58,698 bases of DNA from an uncultured Naasia sp. (GTDB lineage: Bacteria; Actinomycetota; Actinomycetes; Actinomycetales; Microbacteriaceae): the NCBI GenBank assembly GCA_913778905.1, contig CAJYYA010000017.1, forward strand, positions 1 to 58,698, in the 5' to 3' direction. The first letter of the stretch is position 1; every line of letters begins with the position of its first letter. Shown piece after piece: positions 2,859 to 48,862 of this stretch. A program made the translations under genes and the position numbers. The notes under the pieces are model-generated. The model ran no database searches, had not been told where the DNA came from, and saw nothing but the letters and a program-made list of their open reading frames with translations.

Positions 2859-3461
2859 TCAGTCGGGGATGCGCTTGTCGGCGAGCAGCCGATCGGCCGC
2901 GCGGTGCAATGCGGCGGACGACGCGATCGGGTCCGCACCGACGTAGGCGCCGCCCATCGCTCCGTCGCGGAGAAGGAAGAGCTCGTCGGCGGCGGCTCCG
3001 GGGGCGGGGTGGCCGATCTCGACGAGACGGTGCTCGAGGAACTCGATGAACCAGTCGCGATGGTGCAGGATGGCGACTCGCACGGGGTGCGTGACGTTGA
3101 AGAATTCCGACGCCGCGTTGAGGAAGGGGCAGCCTCGGAAGTCCCGTCGTCCGAGGTCGGCCGCGATGCCGTCGATCAGAGAGCGGATGGTCTGCTCCGC
3201 GTCGGGGGATGCGGCGTGCAGCGTCTCGAGCGACTCGCGGACCTGCTGATCGCGATGCTCGATGTAGGCGAGGATGAGTGCATCCTTCGAGCCCCACTGC
3301 TTGTAGAACGTCGCCTTGGTGACACCGGCCTCGGCGATGATGCGATCGATGCCGACCGTGTTGATGCCCTCGGCGTAGAACAGCCGGTCGGCGACCTCGA
3401 GGAGGCGGAGTTTGGCGGCCGAGGGACGCCGTGCGGCTGATTGGGGGATGTCAGCGTGCAC
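2859..3461 (-). CDS. TetR/AcrR-family transcriptional regulator
   Basis: A 200-residue protein. Residues of about 12-60 form the TetR helix-turn-helix (AADRLFYAEGIN..., IAEAGVTKATFYKQWGSKD), followed by an all-helical ligand domain containing GCPFLNAASEF. GTG at 3461 is preceded 6 nt upstream by AGAGGAGA, which decides the start; the open frame runs much further upstream without support. It is convergent with the aldo/keto-reductase genes and divergent from the M16 protease. A 22-bp palindrome 170 bp upstream is the likely operator, so autoregulation is expected. The ligand cannot be read from sequence. Confidence 0.9.
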   Translation of the reverse strand: MHADIPQSAARRPSAAKLRLLEVADRLFYAEGINTVGIDRIIAEAGVTKATFYKQWGSKDALILAYIEHRDQQVRESLETLHAASPDAEQTIRSLIDGIAADLGRRDFRGCPFLNAASEFFNVTHPVRVAILHHRDWFIEFLEHRLVEIGHPAPGAAADELFLLRDGAMGGAYVGADPIASSAALHRAADRLLADKRIPD

Positions 3462-3629
3462 GGCGTCTCCTCTGGGCGGATCGGGGGAAATCCGCCGCTT
3501 GCCATTTCGCGAGCGAGGATTCGCTCTCTTTCTCGATCCGAGATTTGGGGGGACTCCCGGATCGAAACTACTCGGCGGTCGGGTGTTCCGCCGTTCGAAT
3601 CGCTTCGATGTAATGAACTTAGCAGGGTG

Positions 3630-8998: not shown

Positions 8999-9730
8999 GT
9001 GAGTGAAGACATCGAGTTCCGCAGTGAGATGACCGTGGAGCTCGTTCGATCGAGCGCCCACGATTCCGACGTGCTGTTCGCAGCGCGCGTGTCGACCCAG
9101 GGGGAGAAGACCCTCGGCGACGCGCAGGACGGCGTCGAAGCCGATGAGAAGCGCGACCGCGGGCTCATCAACTACCTCATGCGAGACCGTCACGGCTCGC
9201 CGTTCGAGCACAACTCCATGACGTTCTACGTGCAGGCGCCGATCTTCGTGTTCCGCGAGTTCATGCGGCACCGCGTCGCCTCGTACAACGAGGAATCGGG
9301 TCGCTACCGCGAGCTGCGCCCCACGTTCTACGTGCCCGGTCCCGAGCGCAAGCTCGTGCAGGTCGGAAAGCCCGGCGCCTACAGCTTCGAAGACGGCACC
9401 CCCGAGATGACCGAGCTCGTCGGCCAGCAGACGCGCGCCGTCAGCACCCAGGCCTACGAGTCCTATCAGCGCATGCTCGACGCGGGCATCGCGCGGGAGG
9501 TCGCTCGCATCGTTCTCCCGCTCAACCTCTTCTCGTCGATGTACGTGACGATGAACGCGCGGGCCCTGATGAACTTCCTCAGCCTCCGAACCAAGCGCGA
9601 GGACTCGCACTTCCCGTCGTTCCCACAGCGCGAGATCGAGATGGTCGCCGAGAAGATGGAGACCTCGTTCCAGGAGCTCATGCCCCTGACCCACGCGGCG
9701 TTCGAGAAGAACGGACGGGTCGCACCCTGA
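8999..9730 (+). CDS. thyX: FAD-dependent thymidylate synthase
   Basis: A 243-residue ThyX. It methylates dUMP to dTMP with methylene-tetrahydrofolate and FADH2. The signature RHRVASYNEES (RHR-x7-S) is at residues 90-100, followed by GRYRELRPTFYVPG. Length and order match actinobacterial ThyX. It is the only thymidylate synthase in the window. The stop codon TGA overlaps a CTG that appears to start the SDR gene. Confidence 0.97.
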   Translation: MSEDIEFRSEMTVELVRSSAHDSDVLFAARVSTQGEKTLGDAQDGVEADEKRDRGLINYLMRDRHGSPFEHNSMTFYVQAPIFVFREFMRHRVASYNEESGRYRELRPTFYVPGPERKLVQVGKPGAYSFEDGTPEMTELVGQQTRAVSTQAYESYQRMLDAGIAREVARIVLPLNLFSSMYVTMNARALMNFLSLRTKREDSHFPSFPQREIEMVAEKMETSFQELMPLTHAAFEKNGRVAP

Positions 9731-10488
9731 CCCGGCGACGCGTCGCGCTCGTCACCGGGGCCACCGCCGGCCTCGGTGCCGAGTTCTCGCGTCAGCTGGC
9801 CGCCCGCGGGTTCGATCTCGTCCTGGTCGCCCGCTCGGCCGACGGACTCGAGCGCGTCGCCGACGAACTGCGTTCCGCCGGCCGCCGGATCGATGTCCTC
9901 GCCCGTGATCTGTCCGACGCGGGCGCGCTCGCCGACGTCGAGACGCGGCTCGCGGACCCATCCCGTCCTGTGGACCTGCTGGTCAACAACGCCGGCTTCG
10001 GGCTCCGTGACCCGTTCGCCTCGTCGGCTGTCGATGACGAGCAGCGGCTGCTCGACGTGCTCGTCACGGCACCCATGCGCCTCACCCACGCCGTTCTTCC
10101 GCAGATGGTCGAGCGGGGCCGTGGCGCGGTGGTCAACGTCGCAAGCGTGGCGGCCTACACTCCACGCGGAACCTACGGCGCGGCGAAGGCATGGCTGCTG
10201 TCGTTCAGCCGGTCCTTGCACGTCGAGCTCCGGGGACGCGGCGTGACCGTGACGGCCGTGGCACCGGGGTTCGTCCACACGGAGTTCCACTCGCGGATGC
10301 GGGTGTCGAAGGACGGCATCCCGCGCGTCCTGTGGCTCCGGCCCGAGTACGTGGTGCGTGCCACCCTGCGCGCGGCGGCGCGCCGTCGCATGGTGACCAT
10401 CCCCAGCCTGCGCTACCGCCTCATCGTCGCTCTCGCCCGCCTCGCCCCGGCGCCCTGGGCCGCCGCGGGCACCCTCACACCCCGCTGA
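9727..10488 (+). CDS. Short-chain dehydrogenase/reductase (probable CTG start)
   Basis: A 253-residue classical SDR with the cofactor motif VTGATAGLGAEF near residues 8-19, NNAG (NAGFGLRDPF), the catalytic Ser in VNVASVAAYTP, and YGAAKAWL (Tyr-x3-Lys). A C-terminal hydrophobic stretch follows. No ATG, GTG or TTG exists in this frame before the Rossmann motif; the first one (9970) would remove the whole cofactor site. CTG 9727 overlaps the thyX TGA as CTGA, the position normally taken by ATGA or GTGA, so I infer a CUG start coupled to thyX. The substrate is unknown. Confidence 0.85.
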   Translation: MTRRRVALVTGATAGLGAEFSRQLAARGFDLVLVARSADGLERVADELRSAGRRIDVLARDLSDAGALADVETRLADPSRPVDLLVNNAGFGLRDPFASSAVDDEQRLLDVLVTAPMRLTHAVLPQMVERGRGAVVNVASVAAYTPRGTYGAAKAWLLSFSRSLHVELRGRGVTVTAVAPGFVHTEFHSRMRVSKDGIPRVLWLRPEYVVRATLRAAARRRMVTIPSLRYRLIVALARLAPAPWAAAGTLTPR

Positions 10489-10501
10489 ACCGAGCACCCT
10501 G

Positions 10502-10645
10502 CTGAACAAATGCAGGAGTCCGAAGAACGAATGCAGGATCCGAGGAATCGGCCCCTTATCGGTTCCGCATGACTCCTGGGGACCGGTCCGGCGGGTCCTG
10601 CAAACAGCGCGGCATCTCCTGCATTCGTCACGCGGTTCCTGCATT
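10502..10645. repeat. Five-iteron element, copy A
   Basis: The 9-bp core AATGCAGGA occurs at 10509-10517 and 10530-10538 on the plus strand (21-bp step). On the minus strand it starts at 10596 (degenerate), 10617 and 10637 (21- and 20-bp steps). Exactly 57 bp separate the two facing sets. The outer end carries CTGAACAAATGCAGGAGTC. Copy B on the other side of the DUF559 gene has the same geometry inverted. Confidence 0.85.
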
Positions 10646-10698
10646 CGGTCGGCCACGATGGGGAACGCGCTCGGGTGCCCCTTCTGCCGGAAGCCATC

Positions 10699-11577
10699 TC
10701 AGGTGGGGATCCGGATGGGTGACGCACGGTGGTCGCCGCGTGCCACGGCGGCCAGCACGGCGGCCTCGACGAGGCCCCATTCGCGCTCGACCTGGTTGGC
10801 CAGGAACCGGAGTGTGCGATACCCGCGGGCGCTGGCCGCAGCATCGCGGCGACGGTCGCGGGCGTCGTCGCGGTGGAACGCCTCGCCGTCGAGCTCGACG
10901 ATGAGCGTGTCGCCGATGAGAGCGTCGACGATGCCGACGCCGTCGATCCGAACCTGTTGAGCCACCTGGATGTCCAGCGCGCGGATACGGAAGACGAAGA
11001 TCGATTCGATTCCGCTCGCCGACGAGGTACCCACTGCCGGCAGGCGTCGGCGGAACGTACGGGGGAGAGAGTCACGAACAGCGGCCCAGTCGCCTTCGGT
11101 AACGAGTCCGGTGTGCAGCGCCGACTCCGCCACCACGGCCAGGTACTCGGGGGAGTGGCAGTGGGCGATCTGACGGAGACACTCAGTAGGAGGCGCCACT
11201 ACGCGCGACCGCTCGCAGGATGTACCCGTCCAGTGCACCTTCACGGTCGATCCGTCACCGAGTCGCGTTCGGTACGAAGTGGCGGTCCGCAGACGGGAGG
11301 CTTTCTCGTGCACACCGACATGGAGCACCTCGTCCCCGCGCGGCACCCACAGACCCCAGAACCGGGCGCCGCTGCTGCATGCCAGCTGACCGCCCACCCG
11401 CACCGCGCGTTGCGCGTCGGGCGGCAAGGACGGCGAGCAGTACCAGCCCTGTCGTACGCGGACGAGCACGCGGGACGCGACGAGATCCGTGATCCGGGTT
11501 CGGTCGAATCCGGCGTCGTGCAATTCCCAGGTGGCGATGACTCCGCCGCGATCACGGATGAGGGTTTCGAGTTCCAT
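10699..11577 (-). CDS. AbiEi-like winged-helix / DUF559 endonuclease-domain protein
   Basis: About 292 residues. The N-terminus (residues 1-50: LIRDRGGVIATWELHDAGF, RITDLVASRVLVRVRQGWYC) resembles the AbiEi antitoxin DNA-binding region. The C-terminal 90 residues match DUF559, a Vsr-like PD-(D/E)xK nuclease fold: IVELDGEAFH, then DARDRRRD, RGYRTLRFLANQVEREW. A role in DNA defence or repair is inferred only. ATG 11577 was chosen because GGGAGGG lies 7 nt upstream; the open frame continues through copy B of the flanking repeat. It sits alone between two inverted five-iteron elements, interrupting the thyX-dapA interval. No AbiEii-like toxin gene is adjacent. Confidence 0.82.
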   Translation of the reverse strand: MELETLIRDRGGVIATWELHDAGFDRTRITDLVASRVLVRVRQGWYCSPSLPPDAQRAVRVGGQLACSSGARFWGLWVPRGDEVLHVGVHEKASRLRTATSYRTRLGDGSTVKVHWTGTSCERSRVVAPPTECLRQIAHCHSPEYLAVVAESALHTGLVTEGDWAAVRDSLPRTFRRRLPAVGTSSASGIESIFVFRIRALDIQVAQQVRIDGVGIVDALIGDTLIVELDGEAFHRDDARDRRRDAAASARGYRTLRFLANQVEREWGLVEAAVLAAVARGDHRASPIRIPT

Positions 11578-11681
11578 CCGAGCACCCTCCCGCTCGCCGT
11601 GGGCGTGCCGGGAGGCGGAGCGAGCGATGTGGGGCATCGGCGGCGATCGCGGCCGGGGGAGGAGACGGCCGCCTCTGAACA

Positions 11682-11825
11682 AATGCAGGATCGGCACGCG
11701 GAATGCAGGAGACGACGTCACAAATGCAGGAAGCGTGGAGAAAGTGGCCCGGAAAGTCGGGGGTGTCATCGCCGACCGACTCCGCATCTCCTGCATTCGT
11801 TTTGCCGACTCCTGCATTTGTTCAG
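11682..11825. repeat. Five-iteron element, copy B (inverted relative to copy A)
   Basis: Plus-strand AATGCAGGA cores are at 11682, 11702 and 11723 (20- and 21-bp steps). Minus-strand cores start at 11789 and 11810 (21-bp step). The facing sets are 57 bp apart, as in copy A. The outer 19 bp (11807-11825) are the exact reverse complement of 10502-10520. The remaining 11578-11916 interval holds the DUF559 ribosome site and the dapA promoter; I see no other gene. Confidence 0.85.
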
Positions 11826-11903
11826 AACAGGGGAGGGACGGAGCGCACCGGCTGTTCACTCGACGACGGACGAGAGGTGCCTCGCCGTGAAGGGCCCACC
11901 GGA

Positions 11904-11909
11904 TAGCCT
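11904..11909 (+). promoter_or_regulatory. -10 box of dapA
   Basis: TAGCCT, 7 nt before GTG 11917 but only 1 nt before the in-frame ATG 11911, which favours GTG as the leaderless start. Confidence 0.55.
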
Positions 11910-11916
11910 TATGGTC

Positions 11917-12894
11917 GTGTCAGCGCAGGAGAACCCGTTCGGCCAGGTCTTGGTCGCCCTCGTCACCCCGTTCACCGCCGACGGCGAAGTCGATTGGCCG
12001 GCAGTCGAGAGCCACATCGATCACTGCATCAGCGAGGGCGCCGACGGCATCGTCGTCACCGGCACCACCGGTGAGACGAGCACCCTGACCGACCCCGAGA
12101 AGGTGCGACTCGTCGAGGTCGCCCGCGACGTGTCGTCAGGCCGCGCGAAGGTCATCACCGGTGGTGGCTCGAACGAGACGGCCCACGCCATCGAGCTCTA
12201 CAAGAAGAGCGAGAAGGTCGGTGCCGACGGCATCATGATCGTCACGCCGTACTACAACAAGCCCACTCAGGCGGGCATCCTCACGCACTTCCGCATGGTC
12301 GCCGACTCGACCGACCTGCCGGTGATCCTCTACGACATTCCCGGCCGCACGGGCGTTCCCATCAAGTACGAGACCATCCTGCGCCTCGCGAAGCACCCCA
12401 ACATCCTCGCCGTGAAGGACGCCAAGGGCGACTTCAGCGAGGTCAGTCGTGTGCTCAACCAGACCGACCTCCTCTACTTCTCGGGTGATGACGCCAACGT
12501 GCTCCCTCATCTCTCGATCGGAGCGAGCGGACTCATCGGCGTGACCGCCAACATCGCCCCGGCGGCCTATCGGACGATGGTCGACGCCGTGAACGCGAGC
12601 GATCTGGCGACCGCGACGGAGATGCACAAGGCTCTCGAGCCGCTCGTGCGCGCGACGATGACTCATGTCCCGGGTACAGTCGCAACGAAGTACATCCTTC
12701 ACGGCCTCGGCCGGATCTCCTCGCCCCGCGTGCGCCTGCCGCTCGTCGGACCCGAGGAGTGGGAGGCCGCACTCATCGAAGACGAGATCGATCTCGTCCG
12801 CACCATCCCGGGTGTGAAGTTCACCAAGTTCCGTCCCGACCGCAACGCCGCGGCCGGCGGAGCGCTCCCCAAGGTGGCGGGTACCACCCGCTAG
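11917..12894 (+). CDS. dapA: 4-hydroxy-tetrahydrodipicolinate synthase
   Basis: A 325-residue DapA. It condenses pyruvate with aspartate semialdehyde at the first committed step of lysine/DAP synthesis. Seen are the GTTGETSTLT phosphate-type loop (about 50-59), catalytic Tyr in ILYDIPGRTG (about 139) and the Schiff-base Lys in LAVKDAKGD (about 167). The C-terminus has an extra basic stretch (FRPDRNAAAGGALPKVAG). RNase J follows 74 bp downstream, a pairing common in actinobacteria. The start was set by the -10 spacing, although a much longer open frame exists upstream. Confidence 0.97.
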   Translation: MSAQENPFGQVLVALVTPFTADGEVDWPAVESHIDHCISEGADGIVVTGTTGETSTLTDPEKVRLVEVARDVSSGRAKVITGGGSNETAHAIELYKKSEKVGADGIMIVTPYYNKPTQAGILTHFRMVADSTDLPVILYDIPGRTGVPIKYETILRLAKHPNILAVKDAKGDFSEVSRVLNQTDLLYFSGDDANVLPHLSIGASGLIGVTANIAPAAYRTMVDAVNASDLATATEMHKALEPLVRATMTHVPGTVATKYILHGLGRISSPRVRLPLVGPEEWEAALIEDEIDLVRTIPGVKFTKFRPDRNAAAGGALPKVAGTTR

Positions 12895-48079: not shown

Positions 48080-48862
48080 CCCTTCGTATCGCTCCGCTCA
48101 ACGGGCGGGAGGACTGTCGCCCCGCCCATTGAGCGAAGCGGAATGAAGGGGTAGCAACGGAGTTCTTCGGTGCTCGTTTCGCGACGGCCCTGGCGGGCCT
48201 CCTCAATGAGCGGCTGTGTGCGGTCGCTGAGGAGGTCGCTCTGCGACCGTCGCGAAGCGGTCCGAGGATGGTGCCCTGCATTTCGCTTCGCTCAATGGGC
48301 GGGCGGTTCCGAGCATGCGCCCCGCCCATCGAGCGGAGCGAAATGAAGGGGTGGCAGCGGAGTTCTTCGGCGCTCGTTTCGCGACGGCCCTGGCGGGCCT
48401 CCTCAACGAGCGGCTAGGTCTGGTCGCTGAGGAGGTCGCTCTGCGACCGTCGCGAAGCGGCCCGTGGGCAGGTGCCCTGCATTTCGTTGCGCTCAATGGG
48501 CGGGCGGTCCCGGGCGTGTGCCCCGCCCATTGAGCGGAGCGAAATGAAGGGGTGGCGGCGCGGTTCTGAGATGCACTCCTCTGGCGCTTGTTTCGCGACG
48601 GCCCTGGCGGGCCTCCTCGACGAGCGGCTGTGTGTGGTCGCTGAGGAGGTCGCTCTGCGACCGGCGCGAAGCGGTCCGTGGGCGGGTGTCCTGCATTTCG
48701 CTTCGCTCGATGGGCGGGCGGTTCCGAGCATGCGCCCCGCCCATTGAGCGGAGCGAAATGAAGGGGTGGCAACGGAGTTCTTCGGTGCTCGTTCCGTGAC
48801 CGCCCTGGCGGACCTCCTCAACGAGCGGCTCCGATCGTCGCGAAGCGGCCGCCGCACGCGCT
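48080..48862. repeat. Tandem array of about 200-bp hairpin-bearing units
   Basis: This 805-bp gap between pheT and the arginine cluster has units beginning CCCCGCCCAT at 48120, 48320, 48521 and 48735, so periods are 200, 201 and 214 bp; the fourth unit has an internal deletion. Each unit includes GTTTCGCGACGGCCCTGGCG, CGCTGAGGAGGTCGCTCTGC and a junction hairpin made of ATTTCGCTTCGCTCAATGGG and CCCATTGAGCGGAGCGAAAT. A diverged hairpin half starts near 48080. ORFs in the array are repeats read by chance. Confidence 0.88.

Follow-up and report, generated by a model that had tools for sequence, protein, structure and literature searches.

The closest described counterparts of the elements analysed here are REPINs, which, in the available part of their description, are made up of inverted 16-mers at a distance of 71 bp, the spacer showing compensatory changes (PMC3116915). 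The tnpA-REP genes that accompany such repeats are bordered by palindromes and co-evolve with their REPs (PMC8266576, accessible portion), and tagged palindromic repeats carrying GTAG or CGTC tags are announced in the title of a further article (PMC3733652), in the accessible text of which actinobacterial names or a nuclease appear in one passage, in the reference list. On the protein side, the promoters of AbiEi and Rv2827c contain inverted repeats of 23 bp to which these proteins bind (PMC7319586, available sections). An association between DUF559 genes and bracketing repeats is not described in the titles and abstract openings of the literature covered, which lay mostly outside subscription papers.

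The locus studied here shares with REPIN–RAYT systems the conserved inverted ends and a variable spacer of fixed length (in its own genome, G000, as well as in G002, G007 and G060), intergenic copies that are dispersed and also clustered, and a partner gene that is bordered by the repeats and varies together with them. It differs in that the partner is an AbiEi-like/DUF559 protein rather than a Y1/HuH transposase, that the spacer does not pair, that no GTAG or CGTC tag appears at the element ends in the consensus, that the iterons are set at two-turn steps, and that some brackets are apparently not dispersed. Its likeness to the AbiE type IV toxin–antitoxin systems lies in an N-terminal domain that weakly matches models of AbiEi, itself a protein that binds inverted repeats (PMC7319586, available sections); here, however, the C-terminal domain is DUF559, the four scanned neighbours do not include an AbiEii toxin, and the sites are found also downstream of the gene and genome-wide. 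Compared with other DUF559/Vsr-like PD-(D/E)XK endonucleases, the nuclease is joined to a putative DNA-reading domain, and a family of repeats brackets its gene. Finally, the elements are short, non-coding and dispersed and have inverted ends, as do MITEs, but no convincing target duplication accompanies them, and their interiors have diverged whereas cores and spacing have been kept.

The DUF559 locus and its flanking elements

In the window, that is, the whole stretch of 58,698 nucleotides that was analysed, the core AATGCAGGA occurs 11 times, against 0.10 expected from shuffling, and nine of the 11 copies fall inside two elements, A and B, on either side of a DUF559 gene. Element A (10502..10652, plus strand), between the stop of the short-chain dehydrogenase (SDR) gene and the 3′ end of the DUF559 gene, is a five-iteron element (2+3) in which core 1 (AATGCAGGA, 10509..10517) and core 2 (10530..10538) are on the plus strand and cores 3 (10596..10604), 4 (10617..10625) and 5 (10637..10645) on the minus strand, core 3 being a degenerate copy, TCCTGCAAA, with two mismatches. 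Element B (11675..11825, minus strand), upstream of the DUF559 gene, has the opposite orientation and reads 3+2 on the plus strand, with cores 1 (11682..11690), 2 (11702..11710) and 3 (11723..11731) on the plus strand and cores 4 (11789..11797) and 5 (11810..11818) on the minus strand. Successive steps in A are 21 bp, a 57-bp gap, 21 bp and 20 bp, and B is its mirror image. Of the original prediction that ten inverted cores share an identical geometry, the geometry and nine cores hold, the exception being the degenerate core 3 of A; the outer terminus of 19 bp, CTGAACAAATGCAGGAGTC, is exact in both elements, as had been claimed. Steps of 20–21 bp equal two helical turns, and the phased cores appear, as was also proposed, to resemble sites for a protein. 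Elsewhere in the window, at about 48690–48767, an isolated core match lies within a separate inverted repeat, formed by TTTCGCTTCGCTCGATGGGCGGG and an inexact inverse copy, that may be a terminator.

The gene between A and B (10699..11577, minus strand; ATG at 11577, with the open frame starting further upstream, at 11859) encodes a 292-aa protein with an AbiEi-like winged helix and a DUF559 (Vsr-like nuclease) domain. It is flanked by host genes on the plus strand, a thyX-like gene (8999..9730; Thy1, PF02511) and the SDR gene (9730..10488; PF00106, start approximate) on one side, and on the other a dapA-like gene (11914..12894; DHDPS, PF00701, start approximate) that serves as the anchor for the orthologous junction. 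The four neighbouring proteins scanned were Thy1, a short-chain dehydrogenase (adh_short), DHDPS and RNase J, and an AbiEii toxin is absent among them.

DUF559 domains belong to the Vsr-like fold. The domain (PF04480) is matched in the 292-aa protein with 35.2 bits (cut-off 20.6) and in all four proteins that make up our search profile, A1; the match to AbiEi_4 is weak (21.8 bits, under the cut-off of 25), and the PADLOC AbiEi model is matched with an E value of 5.6e-07. The only solved relative in a profile search was 3hrl, named endonuclease-like protein (E 0.0022, profile positions 212–277). Residues E191, D218 and D241 are identical in all 87 aligned proteins, and D230, H235 and E228 in 85, 83 and 79 of them, respectively. 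Since these residues of the nuclease core, the acidic and histidine residues of the DUF559 domain that we take to be catalytic, are conserved, the nuclease looks intact from its sequence. A single-sequence structure prediction was set aside (mean pLDDT 44.7). No evidence for a defence role came from the PADLOC profile scan, which matched AbiEi models only, plus DpdF weakly in one member. Relatives of the protein are absent from the viral contig collection, and on plasmids they are represented by three Tsukamurella records with 30–32% identity.

Dispersed copies in the same genome

The genome of origin (3,218,083 bases in 23 contigs) contains 125 exact AATGCAGGA cores against 6 for a reversed control, and at least 31 elements were recognized in 31 stretches around listed core positions and in the window. 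This total is a lower bound, because elements were sought near 100 of the 125 core positions, and a core standing alone did not qualify as an element. With so many copies in one genome, the element cannot be the private border of a single cassette: 29 of the 31 do not adjoin this DUF559 gene. The original prediction had regarded isolated copies unlinked to DUF559 genes as speaking against its proposal and, taken literally, such copies are there; nevertheless, the link to DUF559 survives, because bracketed gene and dispersed core co-occur in several genomes, with exceptions, and the claim that gene and elements belong together is upheld by the recurrence of bracketing in other genera with other cores.

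The copies are highly regular. Five sites, each with at most two mismatches, lie on a 20/21-bp grid in 28 of the 31 elements, the other three having four, four and three sites; the steps are 20 or 21 bp, and the central gap is 57 bp in 29 elements, 56 bp in one and 58 bp in one. Mean pairwise identity is 0.38 across the 57-bp gaps (0.28 expected by composition) versus 0.96 for the inner core, and the near-palindromic CCCGGAATCATGCGGG, or its reverse, is recurrent within the gap. The elements are intergenic in 28 of 31 cases; the other three run into the margin of an ORF loosely called by a rough gene caller based on codon position. When genome contigs were scanned for the exact core doublet, at least 107 stretches were found; the best 80 of the 107 are mostly single matches in unrelated taxa, and the latter were taken as chance.

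A second AbiEi/DUF559 gene of the same genome (L224, in G000:C6:21000-27000) is likewise bracketed, by elements near 2344–2423 and 3414–3493 of that stretch with the core CCAAATCACGGAGA, 66 bp apart. No further copy of this core was found in the 363,729 bp of own sequence scanned.

DUF559 genes and their brackets in related genomes

A dapA orthologue is present in seven of eight congeners. The SDR–dapA junction is without a DUF559 gene in four of these seven (L181, L183, L184 and L185), so that an empty site, which the original prediction had proposed to look for, does exist in relatives. In the other three the junction carries a DUF559 gene whose product is 59% (L180), 51% (L186) or 38% (L182) identical to the window protein, and each of these genes has an inverted-repeat element at either end, built on a different core (CTGACCAAATGCAGGAGA, CTGACCAAATCAAGGAGA and CGCAAGCGGA, respectively). 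These elements, too, are dispersed. The end motif AMCAAATSMAGGAG occurs 42 times in G002, 23 times in the own genome, 20 times in G007, four times in G001, three times in G004, twice in G006 and not at all in the other three genomes, its reversed control being absent from all nine genomes of the genus. Elements of the L182 type comprise five of 64 bp in G001, two of them next to the gene, and a match of 77 bp in G002. In the majority of G002 and G007 elements the end motifs start at a distance of 68 bp from one another, and the overall range is 64–68 bp. Counted instead from a AATGCAGGA-like core to its inverted partner, the distance is 66 bp for the inner pair of the own elements, 65 bp in most G002 and G007 elements and 64 bp in G060; with inner-pair distances so alike, the own elements look like the common pair plus extra iterons outside. 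Some arrays of G002 (L289, L297 and L286) mix two element types, one of them with a ACCAAATCAAGGAG-like core that is matched by neither of the two G002 DUF559 loci examined.

Using the A1 profile at a threshold of 1e-20, matches were obtained in 36 of the 60 genomes of the family, presumably Microbacteriaceae, and in eight of the nine genomes of the genus (the own genome counted in both). Comparison of 400 bp upstream with 400 bp downstream showed that in 57 of 107 DUF559 loci the two flanks have a repeat in common that scores at least 16, the remaining 50 being unbracketed at this score. The first batch accounts for 50 of 87 loci (37 genomes, 29 of which have at least one bracketed locus), and the second, made up mostly of weaker matches, for seven of 20. 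The same score was reached by 20 of 2000 mismatched flank pairs, a figure that excludes pairs drawn from one genome, and by six of 287 other genes, which were taken from stretches at regular, pre-fixed coordinates in six genomes and whose downstream flank starts at the end of the open frame rather than, as for the 87 DUF559 loci, at the end of the profile match; in an earlier control set of 12 genes, one reached it. Excluded from the 87 loci were L210 and L218, which are cut by contig ends, and L272, a duplicate of L224. At L266 of G001 the DUF559 open frame enters the downstream element, which thus encodes the last residues; this locus is bracketed by eye but was missed in the initial repeat scan because the open frame runs into the element. 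Significant shared repeats lie near both gene ends, and the association between DUF559 genes and elements is strong.

Two other motifs were found in the flanks. An inner motif like TCACACGTT gave five matches in the DUF559 flanks versus none in twice as much control sequence; as the matches are confined to three genomes, the motif is present but not general. A TCCACAG motif, CTCCACAG, occurs in the flanks of 14 of 37 genomes, mostly about 45–105 bp before the match start, and not in the control, but it is unlinked to bracketing, being found at 16 of the 37 loci that lack a repeat of score 15 and at 15 of the 50 that have one.

Abundance of a core in a genome tends to go with its presence at a DUF559 gene. 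Among the 31 family genomes whose DUF559 loci were examined, and for which L210 and L218 were restored, 20 or more AATGCAGGA copies are present in all six genomes with AATGCAGGA in a DUF559 flank versus none of the 25 others; the core is on both flanks in G000, G017, G052 and G071 and on one side in G060 and G045 (a contig-cut locus). Among all 60 family genomes, G064 (34 copies), G081 (30) and G082 (28) also reach 20. The single DUF559 locus analysed in G064 has a bracket that differs from AATGCAGGA, contrary to what the 31 genomes had led us to predict, and G081 and G082 are enriched in AATGCAGGA with no DUF559 match at 1e-20. The genome of G082 is small, and its AATGCAGGA sites are not paired. 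G065 has one AATGCAGGA core in one flank and 13 copies in the genome. Within the genus, the core GCRCGGATCMGGA is found 108 times in G005, 82 in G002, 35 in G003, 33 in G007, 30 in G004, 20 in G001, 11 in G006, three in G000 and once in G008. It is exact on both sides of DUF559 genes in G005 (two loci), G002, G003 and G007 and has one mismatch on both sides in G001; it occurs in none of the DUF559 flanks examined in G004 (two loci), G000 and G008, and G006, which is 68% complete, has its 11 copies and no DUF559 match at 1e-20. In all, up to four genomes are enriched in a core for which a bracketed gene was not found among the matches, which speaks against a strict partnership.

The more alike two proteins are, the more alike their cores tend to be (Mantel r 0.356 over 50 loci, P ≤ 0.0005), a correlation from which the contribution of shared ancestry was not removed; by region, r is 0.30 for residues 1–60, 0.37 for residues 61–185 and 0.20 for the nuclease. 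In 20-kb stretches sampled at fixed coordinates, a clear additional copy of the L214 bracket repeat is present in G043 (score 25), and G024 probably has one of the L203 repeat (score 17); no further copy of their own bracket repeats was found in the 100 kb sampled from each of G048, G051, G014 and G073, queries from several of which gave single matches in the samples of other genomes. These mixed results, together with the bracket of L224 and its lack of further copies, indicate that dispersal of bracketing cores is common but not universal.

Possible roles of the elements and their partner protein

We consider it fairly probable that the AbiEi-like/DUF559 protein serves a family of intergenic elements specific to its genome as their resident partner, much as RAYT (TnpA-REP) is the partner of REPINs. 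Judged from sequence, the DUF559 protein is likely to bind the cores, and the promoter binding of AbiEi and Rv2827c provides a precedent for the proposed reading step. The N-terminal winged helix would bind the cores along one face of double-stranded DNA, and the two inverted arms would be paired across the gap of fixed length; the Vsr-like nuclease may then nick at or inside the element, which repair could copy or move. The gene might travel together with its two flanking elements, and elements on their own might be spread in trans. It is for us an evenly balanced proposition that this represents a second, independently evolved kind of REPtron, in which a winged-helix/PD-(D/E)XK protein reads double-stranded iterons and maintains or spreads its own repeats, with its reading domain evolving in step with the core, across numerous genera of a single actinobacterial family. 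If true, one large group of the common but unexplained DUF559 proteins would gain a substrate that can be read from the flanks, REPIN-like repeat populations could be run by an unrelated enzyme, and dozens of natural protein–site pairs would be at hand for learning how the AbiEi-type winged helix reads DNA.

Reading of a hairpin RNA or of single-stranded DNA was ruled against by the absence of interior pairing and of an Rfam match. In four element sets, of which that of G002 mixes two element types, the interior arms show no pairing beyond that of permuted arms, and clearly less in G007 and G060, and a hairpin intermediate is thus not suggested; nothing in Rfam comes near the gathering score for positions 10400–11950.

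Mobilisation of the elements is something that we infer from the comparison of one genome per species. Alternatively, the elements could be immobile now and constitute nucleoid, repair or self-marking sites under selection, with cores that change along with the reader protein. Diverged interiors combined with fixed spacing would agree with such maintained sites. Two results speak against copying or movement: a convincing target-site duplication is lacking, and no freshly copied pair was seen among the own elements, the top interior identity being 0.58. Four own stretches share an element-bearing intergenic gap with G002 (L178/L286, L177/L289, L148/L297 and L170/L295), an observation equally compatible with old maintained sites and with mobility, though the form differs: the own genome has one five-iteron element in each gap (two in L170), and G002 has groups or arrays of pairs, partly with two alternating element types. 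Against maintained sites, no other shared position was established when 16 element stretches of G002 and 13 of G007 were compared with the 31 own stretches and the window, although remote synteny can be missed in this comparison because it was made by blastn only. The count of one core ranges from 1 to 108 between congeners, and in four of them the junction at which the gene lies here is empty, which also argues against selectively maintained sites, and we regard this explanation as rather unlikely.

The elements could also form an operator network, in which an AbiEi-like repressor autoregulates via element B and the dispersed elements make up its regulon. Such a role would be in line with the autoregulation of AbiEi and Rv2827c via inverted repeats in their promoters (PMC7319586, available sections) and with the conservation of cores and phasing but not of the filler. 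However, the second element sits downstream of the gene, the nuclease residues are conserved, and, by the rough gene caller, 13 of the 31 own elements are situated between convergent genes, as are 32 of the 155 gaps that serve as background (one-sided Fisher P 0.013), and two between divergent ones. Since the DUF559 and dapA genes of the window had escaped the caller, A and B were assigned by hand to a convergent and a divergent gap, respectively, which brings the counts to 14 and 3. An operator network therefore appears improbable.

It is very improbable that the elements are relics of an unrelated transposon (MITEs) by which DUF559 genes were merely carried along. The inverted-repeat ends and the dispersal do resemble MITEs, but simple decay would not spare cores and spacing, and DUF559 genes are bracketed by locus-specific cores in many genera, with covariation of protein and core. 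In addition, a target-site duplication is not convincing in any of the three sets, the best z values among 250 offsets (3.3, 3.2 and 3.5) being at differing offsets and lengths. As for the possibility that these are ordinary REPINs under the control of a RAYT encoded at another locus of the genome, the 71-bp distance between inverted 16-mers and the variable spacer given in the available part of PMC3116915 come close to the 64–68 bp seen here, but this explanation is largely contradicted already and next to negligible, since the spacer is without compensatory pairing and PF01797 (RAYT-type transposase) is found in none of the nine genus genomes (one of them 68% complete) versus five of 14 control genomes.

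With regard to the proposed partnership of DUF559 protein and elements, a directional inner motif made up of parts of TCACACGTTCATGCGGATC is common to the elements of G007 and G060, to one element type of G002 and to L224, despite their different ends, and is possibly a site of action of the nuclease or of a host factor.
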